From positions 1-64,000 of the forward strand of contig JANQKZ010000006.1 in assembly GCA_028280845.1 (NCBI GenBank): DNA of 64,000 bases. The letters are read 5' to 3'. The notes below the pieces were generated by a model. The model had not been told where the DNA came from, did no database searches, and saw nothing but the letters and a program-made list of their open reading frames with translations. Position numbers and translations under genes: made by a program. The stretch comes from Opitutales bacterium. Lineage in GTDB: Bacteria; Verrucomicrobiota; Verrucomicrobiia; Opitutales; JABSRG01. Shown piece by piece: positions 709-5,849 of the stretch. Each line of letters opens with the position of its first letter. Position 1 is the first letter of the stretch.

Positions 709-1644
709 TTGAGTTTTCATTGTTTGTCAGGGAAAGCGTTAGGGTCCGAATCACCAAAATGTTTGGTGCCTCTCAAAAAAAACGCTCGAATCTACTACCT
801 CGTCCGCCTCATGGCTCTCCCGGATCGCCTTACCGCGCTTACCTGTTGCAACCTCATTGATACGGCTTATGAAATGCTCGACGACTGGCTTGAAGAGCAG
901 AAGCCGGATGAGGACAACTTTTTGTGGACCTTGTATGACAAAGCCCCTCCGATGTCGCTATGGAGTGATCCGATCTGGGGCATGACCCGGGTGCGCCGCC
1001 GCCGAAAAGGTCCCCGGCATAAGCACAAATTCAAATGGGTCTACGAATGGTCACCACTCGTCCTCCTGTCCATCGATGATAACAATACGCTCTTTGTCAC
1101 CTCACGGGGAACCCGGCTCGGCAATGAATGGGATCAAAACTTCCGTTTCCCGGCGCGCCCCTTTGAAACAGGAGGAGAAATCGTAGGATCGGTCCACCAG
1201 GGCTTTGGCGATTCCTTTGCCTCCATCGAAGCGGATCTCTTTGAAGAGCTGGCCGAAATCATCACCCGGTCCGGCACCCAACCCAGTCAAATCGTGGTGA
1301 CCGGGCACAGCCTCGGGGGCGCTGTCGCTACGCTCATGGTCACTGCCATTGCCAAAAGCGACTGGTTAAACACGGTGGGAACCCCCCCACTCTCCTGCGT
1401 CACCTTCGCCGCTCCCCGCGCCGCCACCCCATCCTTTCAGGAACAATTCGACGCCCTGGGAATCCCTTTCTGGCGGGTCGAAAACACCGACGACCTCGTC
1501 CCTGACGTTCCCCCCAAACAAATCCTCCTCTGCGAATATACCCACCTCGGCCAGCTCATCGAATTCAACGGCAACAAGGGCAGCCTCGGTGGCAACCACT
1601 CCATGGTGACCTACCGGGAGGCGGTGGAAAAGAGTCTCACCTAA
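709..1644 (+). CDS. class 3 lipase (alpha/beta hydrolase)
   Basis: The 311-residue protein carries the Lipase_3 nucleophile elbow GHSLGGA with Ser201. A downstream DDLVPDVPP segment supplies the likely catalytic Asp (D262), and GGNHSMVTY supplies His297, so the triad is complete and in the family's usual order. No signal peptide is obvious; an internal stretch of Arg/Lys (RRRRKGPRHKHK) precedes the hydrolase core. The start is uncertain: the longest reading uses TTG at 709, while ATG at 811 would remove a poorly typical N-terminus. Base composition matches the GC-rich flanks, unlike the next six genes, so it may not belong with them. The predicted role is ester or lipid hydrolysis; the substrate is unknown. 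Confidence 0.8.
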   Translation: MSFHCLSGKALGSESPKCLVPLKKNARIYYLVRLMALPDRLTALTCCNLIDTAYEMLDDWLEEQKPDEDNFLWTLYDKAPPMSLWSDPIWGMTRVRRRRKGPRHKHKFKWVYEWSPLVLLSIDDNNTLFVTSRGTRLGNEWDQNFRFPARPFETGGEIVGSVHQGFGDSFASIEADLFEELAEIITRSGTQPSQIVVTGHSLGGAVATLMVTAIAKSDWLNTVGTPPLSCVTFAAPRAATPSFQEQFDALGIPFWRVENTDDLVPDVPPKQILLCEYTHLGQLIEFNGNKGSLGGNHSMVTYREAVEKSLT

Positions 1645-1658
1645 AGCTCGATTGAGAA

Positions 1659-2237
1659 ATGGAGGAAACTGCCCCAGTAAAAGAATCTCTAAGGGTCGCT
1701 TTTTTTCGTATCCTTTTCATCACAATTATTGGCTTTCTGGTTTTTGGACTTCTGGTTGCCTTTAGCGCTCTATATTACCCGACAAGTAGGACCATTTATA
1801 CAGGAGAATCGCTCGGGGATGTTCTCCCCATCATAATTCTAGTAGCTCTATTAATGGAGCGGTCTACTGACTCACTCCTCTACTTCTTTTTTGTTAAAGA
1901 ATCGCCTCTAAGCGTAAATAGGAAGGGAGTCATTTCAAAGCAGGCTACCTCTTATATTTTAGGTGTTTCTCAAGGAGTGATCATATCCATCGTCGGTGTC
2001 AGGATACTCGACAAAATAATTGTCGCTCCTACATCACCGCAGAATGAATCCATCTTCATTTTAGTAGATGTGGTGTTTACCTCTCTCGTTTTGGCCTCTG
2101 GATCTGAAGGGATTCACCACGCAGCAAAAGCTTATAAAGCCTTAACGCAACGAGTCACTACATCAAATACCAAAAAGCAGGAGCCAAGCCCTTTGCCCCA
2201 AATGGATGAACCAGAGGACATAAACAGACCAAATTAA
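1659..2237 (+). CDS. four-TM membrane protein of unknown function
   Basis: The 192-residue protein has four hydrophobic segments at about residues 14-37, 54-75, 94-117 and 130-148. A charged patch (LLMERSTDSLL) lies inside the second, a GSEGIHHAAKAY motif directly follows the last, and there is a Pro/Gln-rich hydrophilic tail. It begins 14 bp after the lipase stop and ends 10 bp before the next gene, so co-transcription is likely. It is the first gene of the AT-rich cassette. I recognise no enzymatic domain; the glycine/histidine motif after TM4 is the most family-specific feature to search with. Confidence 0.7.
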   Translation: MEETAPVKESLRVAFFRILFITIIGFLVFGLLVAFSALYYPTSRTIYTGESLGDVLPIIILVALLMERSTDSLLYFFFVKESPLSVNRKGVISKQATSYILGVSQGVIISIVGVRILDKIIVAPTSPQNESIFILVDVVFTSLVLASGSEGIHHAAKAYKALTQRVTTSNTKKQEPSPLPQMDEPEDINRPN

Positions 2238-2247
2238 TACTTAAATT

Positions 2248-2658
2248 ATGGAAATCGAAATCATTAAAAGCCTTCCCGAGATAGACTTAGACATCTCAAC
2301 TGATCCAGATCATTACGCCCGCTACAAGTTTTTCCTTTGGAAAAAGCTTTCCAATGGAAAATGGGGTAAAGTGCAGGACAAAATTCTCCCCAATAAGGCA
2401 GATACCGCTTGGCCGGAACTACATGATCTCCTTCTAACCCCTGGACAATTAAAGGATCACTGCATCTCAGTTTCCCTGTCCGCGACGAGCTTAGTAGAAA
2501 ATGCCTCCAATCTGGAATTAAACTTAATCGTTAACCAGCAAGCAAGTGGTCCGGACGAGACCAGTAAAACAAAGCACTATAGATTCGGTAGGATCGAGCC
2601 CATCAGTAAAGGCTATATCTATAAGGAGAAGAAAACCTTTACCTTCAAATTCGTATAA
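2248..2658 (+). CDS. hypothetical small soluble protein
   Basis: The 136-residue protein has no signal peptide or membrane segment. Its alternating hydrophobic pattern and Lys-rich C-terminus (YIYKEKKTFTFKFV) suggest a mainly beta fold. It sits 10 bp after the four-TM gene, and its stop overlaps the next start in a TAATG arrangement, which implies translational coupling to the outer-membrane-like protein. I do not recognise the family. Composition is AT-rich like its neighbours. Confidence 0.65.
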   Translation: MEIEIIKSLPEIDLDISTDPDHYARYKFFLWKKLSNGKWGKVQDKILPNKADTAWPELHDLLLTPGQLKDHCISVSLSATSLVENASNLELNLIVNQQASGPDETSKTKHYRFGRIEPISKGYIYKEKKTFTFKFV

Positions 2659-4169
2659 TGAGGAAGTATTTTATCTGCTTGAGTATAGTTGCCCTGTCAA
2701 CGTGTGCAAATGGCGAATCCCTTCAAATAACTGGGACACCTGCTGGTATTCAGTTTAATGACAGTGTCATTGAATTTTCTTTTGCTATCACCCAAATCCC
2801 GGAAATCACATCAGAGAGAGTAAACCTAAATTGGAGTACAACTGGAAATGTAGTTACCATAACGGCTACTTTTTCTAAACCGCCTAAGTTTCAATCCTCC
2901 AATGGAGCGTTTAGTTTTATAGTTGATAAAGAAGCTGAACCAGCGCCGAAAAGGCCTCAAGTGAGAGAGGAATTTCTTGGACCTCGGGTTCCCGATGGCG
3001 GATCAGACCAAACGAATTCTGACTCTAATCCTACGGTGGATTCAGGAAATGACGCAGAGGCAGAATTAGATCCAAACTCCATGACAACCCTTGAGATTGT
3101 CAACCACATCCTGAATTCAGAGGAGATCAAAGTCGTAACGGAAGAGTCCTTGCAAGCTAGGGAGTTCGCCAAGGATACAGCCATCCCAGAATCACCGGCA
3201 GCAGCTGTTATTCCTAATTCAAGCAGGTTGATTAGATTAAATACAGCCAAGGATTTTCAGAGCAGCGTAATCAACTTTTTGGATAAAGATGGTAGGATAA
3301 AGACTGGAGGCAGTTTTGCCCTACGCCCATTTCGAGTATTCGCCAGACCCACTTTGACCGAATACCTGTATGGAAATAGCGAGGGAAACGATCTCAGGGA
3401 TGGTTATTGGGTCCGCTTTATGTCCAGAATGGATCTTTCGTTTGCAGCTACCTTAGATCAACAATCAGGTGAATCTAGTGGCAGCACTTTGGCGTTTGGA
3501 TTGTCTGGATACATTTTTGATAAATCTGATGCCCGGGTCGCGATTTTCTCCGATCAAAGTATCAAATCTACACTCGATGGAATTCTCGAAGTCGATGAGG
3601 ATGACCAACCTTTCAATGATTCCTCAAGCTATGCATCCTCAAATCCTTTGATTCAATTCCATAATGATCTGGATAGTGAGTTGTGGAACAATTCATATTG
3701 GGCTTTCGGCTTTGCGCCTAGATTTAATAGTCCAGATGGTTTTATGACTAATTTAGATGCAGACGGAGGCAGCCTTTGGACGACCCTAAATTATGGATTT
3801 GAAAATATCTCAATCCTTGAAAACACCTCACAGTTCCTCCTTCACTTAAATTATCGGGACAATCTCAGTTTTACAGACCCTAACAACGATTCTCTTACTA
3901 TTCAAGAGGACGTTTGGTCAGCCGTAGGTCAACTTCGCATAGGATCAAAATTCTTCAATGGTTTCGCTGAATTAGGTTTTGAAAAACATAACCCTGGAGG
4001 ACGGCAAGACTATGACGTTTTCACTTACAGGGTAGGTATCGATAAGCGGTTGTACAATAATCTCTGGTTGGTCATCGACATAGGCAGTGAAGATTCAGAA
4101 ACCATGGATCAGGACCTTTCAATCAATACCGCACTAAATTATGCGTTCGGTGATTCGATCTCTAAATAA
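2658..4169 (+). CDS. exported protein with probable outer-membrane beta-barrel C-terminus
   Basis: 503 residues. An N-terminal signal peptide (about 1-19, cut near TCANGES) is followed by a beta-rich domain to about residue 95. A Pro/Asp/Asn-rich linker follows (about 95-150). From about residue 210 to the end come many short amphipathic strands separated by Asp/Asn/Gly-rich turns, ending in NYAFGDS. That layout suits an outer-membrane barrel or autotransporter-like protein. Its ATG overlaps the stop of the preceding gene. No porin family is recognised. It could link cytoplasmic cassette products to the envelope, but that is inference. Confidence 0.65.
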   Translation: MRKYFICLSIVALSTCANGESLQITGTPAGIQFNDSVIEFSFAITQIPEITSERVNLNWSTTGNVVTITATFSKPPKFQSSNGAFSFIVDKEAEPAPKRPQVREEFLGPRVPDGGSDQTNSDSNPTVDSGNDAEAELDPNSMTTLEIVNHILNSEEIKVVTEESLQAREFAKDTAIPESPAAAVIPNSSRLIRLNTAKDFQSSVINFLDKDGRIKTGGSFALRPFRVFARPTLTEYLYGNSEGNDLRDGYWVRFMSRMDLSFAATLDQQSGESSGSTLAFGLSGYIFDKSDARVAIFSDQSIKSTLDGILEVDEDDQPFNDSSSYASSNPLIQFHNDLDSELWNNSYWAFGFAPRFNSPDGFMTNLDADGGSLWTTLNYGFENISILENTSQFLLHLNYRDNLSFTDPNNDSLTIQEDVWSAVGQLRIGSKFFNGFAELGFEKHNPGGRQDYDVFTYRVGIDKRLYNNLWLVIDIGSEDSETMDQDLSINTALNYAFGDSISK

Positions 4170-4368
4170 GAGAATCCAACTCTCAAATAAAAAAAGATTA
4201 AAAAGTTATATCAAAGAATTAGACTACTGAAAATTAATTAACTACCGAACCCTAAAATCAAATTCATTACTTCAAGAGACAGCCGACCATTCCTCTAATT
4301 CATAATTTAAAGATAAAACGCTCGAGGTCATAAATATCACTACAGCATAAGTATTTGTTTAAGATTAA

Positions 4369-4827
4369 ATGAAAGTTATTCCTTCTATACTATTATTATA
4401 TATTGGCTTATCAGGGGTTGCGTTTTCAAATAATCCCATAGGATTCGATATCTCAAGAAGTTTTCGATCCGCTCAAATTGAAGCATTGCACCATAGAAAC
4501 CTGAACCCACTAATGGGATTTGAGACGGAAAGCAGAACCTTACAGCTTAGTAAAGATTGGACGCTGTTTGTAGCAGAAAACTTAATCAGTGCAGAAATAC
4601 GTGTAACTGCTATTTGTGGAATGCTCATTGGAGATTCCATAAATAGGGCAGCAATAAGAACTATCGGTGATCCAGCATATGAATCAAAAAGGGGCCAAAC
4701 AAGGGAGGTGCTCGGAACTTTCACAAAGGAGTTAATTGAGGTCGGAAGTGATGGAGGTTTGTTAAACGAAAAGACCTTTGGAAGAGTATTGTGGAATCTA
4801 TGCCCCTTATTTCCAATTTGTGATTAG
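4369..4827 (+). CDS. secreted hypothetical protein
   Basis: The 152-residue protein starts with a signal peptide (about 1-20, ending near GVAFSNN). The mature part is about 130 residues and contains Cys residues at ICGMLIG and in the terminal LCPLFPICD, which could form disulfides in the periplasm. It follows a 199-bp very AT-rich spacer that may hold its own promoter, and ends 8 bp before the three-TM gene. No domain is recognised. Confidence 0.65.
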   Translation: MKVIPSILLLYIGLSGVAFSNNPIGFDISRSFRSAQIEALHHRNLNPLMGFETESRTLQLSKDWTLFVAENLISAEIRVTAICGMLIGDSINRAAIRTIGDPAYESKRGQTREVLGTFTKELIEVGSDGGLLNEKTFGRVLWNLCPLFPICD

Positions 4828-4835
4828 AAATTGAA

Positions 4836-5252
4836 ATGACCGAGATTTTTGTTAGTTCAGTCAGTGATTTGACCAAACAACTGATGACTATTTCATCTGG
4901 TATGATCGCTCTTAGCATTACCTTTTTAAATGATATCTTTAAGTCATCCCCAACTAATAGAAACTGGGCTTTAAAAGCTTGTTGGCTTTTCTACCTTATG
5001 ACAATAGTTTTTGGTTTTTGGACACTGATGGGTTTAACTGGGGGAGTCTCCCGATTGATGTCGGATCCAAATGCTGATGGTGCATTTGAAATGAACGTGA
5101 AGTTTCCCGCATTCCTTCAGATTCTATCTTTTCTGCTAGGAACTGTATTTCTGATTATTTTTGGAATTAGGTCCTTAAACTTCCTATCAAACAAGGAATC
5201 GGCAGTATCTCAACCTCTGGATGAAAAGGTTCCGGAGGATTCACCAAGCTAA
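4836..5252 (+). CDS. three-TM protein, likely partner of the pYEATS-like protein
   Basis: The 138-residue protein has three hydrophobic segments, at about residues 18-32, 49-68 and 88-109. The first carries a Ser/Gly-rich ISSGMIALSITFLNDIF motif and there is a short polar tail. It begins 8 bp after the secreted-protein gene and lies 57 bp before the pYEATS-like gene. Small three-TM proteins encoded beside prokaryotic YEATS-domain proteins are, to my recollection, a recurrent pair in conflict-type bacterial loci. That link is inference here, resting on order and topology. Confidence 0.65.
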   Translation: MTEIFVSSVSDLTKQLMTISSGMIALSITFLNDIFKSSPTNRNWALKACWLFYLMTIVFGFWTLMGLTGGVSRLMSDPNADGAFEMNVKFPAFLQILSFLLGTVFLIIFGIRSLNFLSNKESAVSQPLDEKVPEDSPS

Positions 5253-5309
5253 CACAGACTAGCACACAAACATCCAATTCAAGGAAACCCCTCCAATCAT
5301 TATGTCATT

Positions 5310-5849
5310 ATGACTATCAAGGATTATATTGATTCGTTCCTTAAATTAATTGAGATCATAGCCTCTTGGCCTGTTTTACTCTTAGTTTCAGCAGTCGTGT
5401 TTTATCCCCAAATCAAACCGGCGTTACCTGAACTACTAAGTAGGCTTAGAAAAGCCCCTGGTGGTTGGGAATTCGATGAACTTAAAGAGGTAAAACAGGA
5501 AATTGCTGACTTAGCTAATACCAGCCAAATTCAAATCGACCGTGGAATTGCAAACCTGAAATTCGACCCAAACGCAGTCAAACTTTCGCATTCAGCGAAA
5601 GCTGTGGATGCAAAATATTGGCGTGTTCGTGTCCGCCTAGACGCCCCAGATGAATTTCTAACGGAAGTAAAGCAAGTGATTTTTGAAAGACACCCAACAT
5701 TCAGGAATAGATTTAAAGAGGTAAATAATGCCCCCTTTGAAGACTCGTTCAAATGCTGGGGTGCATTTACTATACGGGCAGAGATAAAGTTAGAGAATGG
5801 TCAAGTATTAAAGAGACAACGATTTTTAACTCTTGAATCCCAAGATTAA
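5310..5849 (+). CDS. membrane-anchored prokaryotic YEATS-like (pYEATS) protein
   Basis: The 179-residue protein has one N-terminal TM segment (about 18-34) and a short helical linker with coiled-coil character (about 50-85). Its C-terminal beta-rich domain (about 100-175) reads WRVRVRLDAP, then VIFERHPTF, then CWGAFTIRAEI. The LDAP start, the hHPTF strand and the WGxFxI strand are the marks by which I recognise the prokaryotic YEATS-like fold. YEATS domains are ligand-reading beta sandwiches, acyl-lysine readers in eukaryotes; the bacterial ligand is unknown. It ends the AT-rich cassette and the next gene is convergent. Confidence 0.65.
   Translation: MTIKDYIDSFLKLIEIIASWPVLLLVSAVVFYPQIKPALPELLSRLRKAPGGWEFDELKEVKQEIADLANTSQIQIDRGIANLKFDPNAVKLSHSAKAVDAKYWRVRVRLDAPDEFLTEVKQVIFERHPTFRNRFKEVNNAPFEDSFKCWGAFTIRAEIKLENGQVLKRQRFLTLESQD

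Follow-up and report, generated by a model that had tools for sequence, protein, structure and literature searches.

A probably composite AT-rich gene patch near a tRNA-Leu gene of an Opitutales bacterium, with a candidate mobile two-gene membrane module and a membrane-anchored YEATS protein

The stretch at positions 1659–5849 of the window (the whole 64,000-nucleotide contig segment of an Opitutales bacterium that was analysed) is probably a patch in which AT-rich accessory genes, gained horizontally as separate units, have accumulated near a tRNA-Leu gene; among them are a candidate mobile module of two genes (D and E), so far undescribed, and a putative reader protein (F). The independent units would number two at the least and probably three, namely the A–B–C block, the D–E pair and F, and we consider it very likely that the six genes do not constitute one system. 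Side-by-side separate acquisitions in AT-rich patches are common in bacterial genomes. A doubtful six-gene system is hereby replaced by a smaller and testable one, D–E, which is the part of the patch that merits follow-up: it has a striking conserved Cys-Pro tail, falls outside the family libraries tried and moves among phage, plasmid and chromosome.

Composition and borders of the patch

Open reading frames A to F were all present at the coordinates that the first-pass annotation had given, consecutively and all on the plus strand, and its description of a GC content below that of both flanks was confirmed (0.405 for 1659–5849, against an average of 0.540 for the remaining window). Other segments of the same size (4191 bp) within the window never had a GC content below 0.506 (mean 0.540, sd 0.010), and the patch is the lowest-GC stretch of the window, at a distance of about 13 sd of equal-sized segments. 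The GC3 values of the six genes ranged from 0.32 to 0.50, compared with a mean of 0.62 in the other ORFs. The tight spacings reported earlier were measured at the same values, with 10 bp between A and B, a 1-bp overlap of B and C, and 8 bp between D and E, while C and D are separated by 199 bp and E and F by 57 bp. In promoter and terminator scans, the number of sites was not above that in shuffled sequence.

The first base of the window is also the first base of the contig, and the right flank of the patch carries genes coding for an AI-2E-type transporter and an RND-like efflux protein. On the left, ARAGORN located a tRNA-Leu (gag) at 269–354 on the minus strand. A 107-bp direct repeat (copies at 1–107 and 183–289, 96% identity) overlaps the 3' end of this tRNA gene at the contig edge and may mark a site of attachment type or a break in the assembly. 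A tRNA-integrated element was considered and rejected, given that the repeat is at the end of the tRNA gene that faces away from the patch and that the patch has no flanking second copy. No integrase was identified for the AT-rich patch, and no direct repeat flanking it was found that would mark an island edge; with neither at hand to define an element, all six genes may have come by one acquisition.

Only 14 bp upstream of A lies a gene coding for a class-3 lipase of the alpha/beta hydrolase type (811–1644, plus strand; PF01764, 5.6e-28), the GC content of which is like that of its surroundings (GC3 0.69). Membership of this gene in a module was rejected because of its host-like GC and because a relative in a genome of the same family (G001) occurs without the island genes, and the lipase probably lies outside the AT-rich insert. 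The G001 relative is split across two reading frames (L073:4276–4755 and nearby), probably because the gene is broken or the assembly is in error there.

By their spacing, A, B and C may form one unit, for which no recurrence elsewhere was seen. Gene A (1659–2237, plus strand) encodes a protein with four TM segments by hydropathy, as had been annotated; its single weak relative in the order (33% identity over 67 residues) is not accompanied by other island genes and has as a neighbour a DUF1353-like gene, identified by reading the sequence. The product of B (2248–2658, plus strand) is a small protein without TM segments, for which searches of genomes and viral contigs yielded no convincing relative; its partial matches in two genomes (G137 and G154) were marginal, came from loci unlike the A–F locus and were discounted, and the Cas6-like and PDC-S04 matches that PADLOC returned for B and D were below significance. 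Gene C (2658–4169, plus strand) codes for an exported protein, with no relative in the genomes, viral contigs or plasmids searched. It had been called barrel-like, and its C terminus (..ALNYAF-GDSISK) does resemble an outer-membrane strand signature; a barrel is possible by this sequence pattern only, with neither a family nor a relative to back it. Viral contigs likewise yielded no relatives of A or F, and plasmids none of A.

The D–E gene pair

Gene D (4369–4827, plus strand) encodes a small protein ending in LCPLFPICD, and gene E (4836–5252, plus strand) a 3-TM protein, of which two TM segments are strong by hydropathy and the first helix is weaker. An N-terminal hydrophobic stretch of D (residues 1–19, hydropathy) is absent from the other D proteins. 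Relatives of E were found in Halomonas (39% identity), Rhizobium, Piscinibacter and a viral contig. In four of four unrelated places, which are all the D–E pairs found (this genome, a Halomonas megareplicon, a Rhizobium plasmid and a phage contig), the two genes directly follow each other, D before E, at distances of 2–8 bp, and their DNA is AT-richer than the flanks, strongly so in three. The D proteins directly upstream of E end in (L/I)CPxxP(I/F)C in all four loci (..LCPLFPICD in the window, ..LCPIYPIC in Halomonas, ..LCPCWPICTA in Rhizobium and ..ICPLWPFC in the viral contig); outside the tail they are poorly conserved, with 18–29% identity. Among the 596 distinct ORFs of the examined loci, a small control with loci partly picked for E, a CPxxPxC at most a few residues from the C terminus was found in D proteins only, a restriction that is far from chance. 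Viral contigs were also searched with two degenerate DNA patterns representing the D tail, and the nine stretches returned were dismissed as chance hits: in none of them did an ORF of gene size end in the motif, which was seen only in a 48-residue fragment.

Searches of Pfam, NCBIfam, PHROGs and PADLOC gave nothing significant for D or E beyond a weak PycTM match of the Halomonas E (E-value 0.0015), and a structure model of D built from two sequences was uninformative (mean pLDDT 37). The wider E family consists of 3-TM proteins with other partners or none: in genome G104 (L020) the E relative stands alone, and on a Piscinibacter plasmid (L045:1910–4366) a phospholipase-D-like gene is followed by a different small secreted protein and then by the E relative. 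A, B, C and F were not found near E relatives. The viral contig is a phage: an SPP1-type portal gene lies 2.1 kb upstream of D, and D–E (L042:4663–5411) is located in the head-gene region of the contig, between the portal and scaffold-like genes and on the same strand. The pair is followed there by several small genes in the opposite orientation.

There is good reason to regard D–E as a real unit. As a mobile two-gene membrane module, it would have E as its membrane-acting part, and D would control E via its C-terminal Cys-Pro tail, which is likely the functional element of the pair and could serve as a redox, metal or docking element. Because one copy is placed inside a phage head-gene region, conflict or superinfection exclusion would be the likeliest role; the pair is small, membrane-located and mobile and has a copy in a phage, all of which points in this direction, and a conflict role is put forward as tentative. 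The fuller proposal is equally tentative, namely that D–E might be an undescribed and widely mobile membrane conflict module, in which the D tail controls a 3-TM effector and which occurs in phages, on plasmids and in AT-rich chromosomal patches of several phyla.

Two other accounts of the pair were weighed. D–E could be toxin–antitoxin-like, such that loss or modification of D would leave E free to damage the membrane, resulting in addiction or abortive infection. A small unit of two genes, carried by mobile replicons and by a phage, an E that is entirely a membrane protein and the weak similarity of the Halomonas E to PycTM, the membrane effector of Pycsar (0.0015), would fit such an arrangement, but the PycTM match is absent for the E of the window and no autoregulatory DNA-binding domain was recognised in D, and we regard it as rather unlikely. 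Lower still we place a phage-type exclusion or envelope-modifying moron that would change the host envelope against other phages without a toxic component: the position of the viral copy, on the same strand between portal and scaffold-like genes, is typical of morons, but for three of the four copies the sequence examined around them contains no phage genes, and the copy in the window resides on a chromosome-like contig.

Protein F and its relatives

Gene F (5310–5849, plus strand) encodes a single-TM pYEATS protein with the domain at about residues 92–173, in agreement with its annotation as TM-pYEATS. Residues 104–173 match PF20305 with 48.7 bits (cut-off 26.9) and residues 102–167 match the eukaryotic YEATS family PF03366 with 44 bits (cut-off 22), and one TM segment (residues 13–31, hydropathy) is followed by the basic residues RLRK. 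Modelled with AlphaFold2 from five natural sequences, the domain reached a pLDDT of about 86, and the top matches listed by Foldseek for this model were all YEATS (best Yaf9, 3.6e-6); this check of the C-terminal domain bore out the expected fold, and phmmer aligned F to solved YEATS domains. In Taf14, the acyl-lysine is held by T61, F62, W81 and G82 (PMC6212594), with which T130, F131, W150 and G151 of F align. The signatures H-x-(S/T)-F and (W/Y)-G-x-F are also present in other aligned pYEATS proteins of the phylum, in an alignment that leaves out one row (L025), the reading frame of which was wrong.

F combines a membrane anchor with a YEATS fold and has the conserved residues of the acyl-lysine pocket, and its best reading, as far as the aligned residues go, is that of a membrane-tethered reader of the acyl-lysine type. 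Since the basic RLRK follows the TM segment, F most likely has its N terminus outside and its YEATS domain in the cytoplasm, which argues against a chain of parts across both membranes. The domain would then bind acylated lysine or a similar acyl ligand at the inner membrane face, and F would act as a sensor or tether at the membrane.

A scan of 84,980 species genomes identified four relatives of F with 54–55% identity, three from Gammaproteobacteria and one from Planctomycetota, the latter truncated by a contig end. Their neighbours are not the same in Microbulbifer, in the Halothiobacillaceae-type lineage and in Planctomycetota (the MAG.318 locus has neighbours in common with that of Halothiobacillaceae, and the two were counted as one lineage), and tblastn searches with A–E against the flanks of the four loci gave nothing above chance. 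The Microbulbifer locus (L003:5117–10500) is itself an AT-rich patch with many small genes between GC-rich core genes; it holds a TM-pYEATS gene and a DUF3368 PIN-like pair and looks like a gene-capture hotspot.

Within the phylum of the window pYEATS proteins are rare (6 of 388 genomes), and they are either preceded immediately by a SLATT/DUF4231-like gene (G068 and G367, two genomes of the order) or found in TM-linked proteins (G346 and G256). The SLATT/DUF4231-like gene comes before the pYEATS gene in both G068 (L011:5752–6708) and G367 (L079:2783–3793), and this pairing may be a conflict unit. SLATT–pYEATS pairing is a theme of comparative-genomics work; the term pYEATS was not met in the literature searched. 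No product of the island matched SLATT/DUF4231 or an effector that could stand beside F, and the relatives of F share no common neighbour.

An analogous pairing of F with E, as membrane partner and pYEATS protein, is improbable: the two genes are neighbours, 57 bp apart, and G068 and G367 have a membrane gene just 5' of pYEATS, but F has a TM segment of its own, its closest relatives have no E-like neighbour and the relatives of E have no pYEATS neighbour. Equally improbable is the single sensing or defence system spanning both membranes that the first-pass annotation had suggested, here as a rare system sampled in this genome alone, for which the contiguity of the six genes on one strand, their uniformly low GC and the tight spacing inside A–B–C and D–E would speak, but relatives of F, E and A were found without the others, the genomes and viral contigs covered by the searches gave no convincing relative of B or C, D–E was the sole recurring pair, at least four of the six genes were never seen together in the loci examined, and the homologues of the pYEATS gene are scattered singly, which largely refutes such a system for F. 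We thus retain the reading of the patch as accreted from separate units.

Comparison with known systems

No known anti-phage system was significantly matched by the island proteins in PADLOC. The E protein resembles PycTM, the Pycsar effector, in being a small multi-TM protein, and the Halomonas E matches it weakly; unlike in Pycsar, no cyclase was matched among the neighbouring and island products, and the E of the window has no PycTM match. Phage morons and superinfection-exclusion membrane proteins are comparable to the D–E pair of the phage contig, which likewise consists of small membrane genes, AT-richer than their surroundings, among head genes; D–E differs from them in having two genes, a conserved Cys-Pro tail and copies outside phages too.

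With the pYEATS family (PF20305; TM-pYEATS and SLATT-pYEATS), F has in common the fold, the H-x-(S/T)-F and (W/Y)-G-x-F signatures and the membrane association, whereas its own TM segment and a conserved RLRKAPGGWEFDEL juxtamembrane stretch set it apart, and, in contrast to SLATT–pYEATS pairs, the products of its neighbouring genes contain no recognised SLATT or effector domain. The eukaryotic YEATS readers Yaf9, Taf14 and AF9 share with F the fold and the T-F and W-G pocket residues (PMC6212594), but F is bacterial and membrane-anchored, and its ligand need not be a histone. As F keeps the acyl-lysine-pocket residues, what it is that bacterial YEATS domains read can be put to a direct test.
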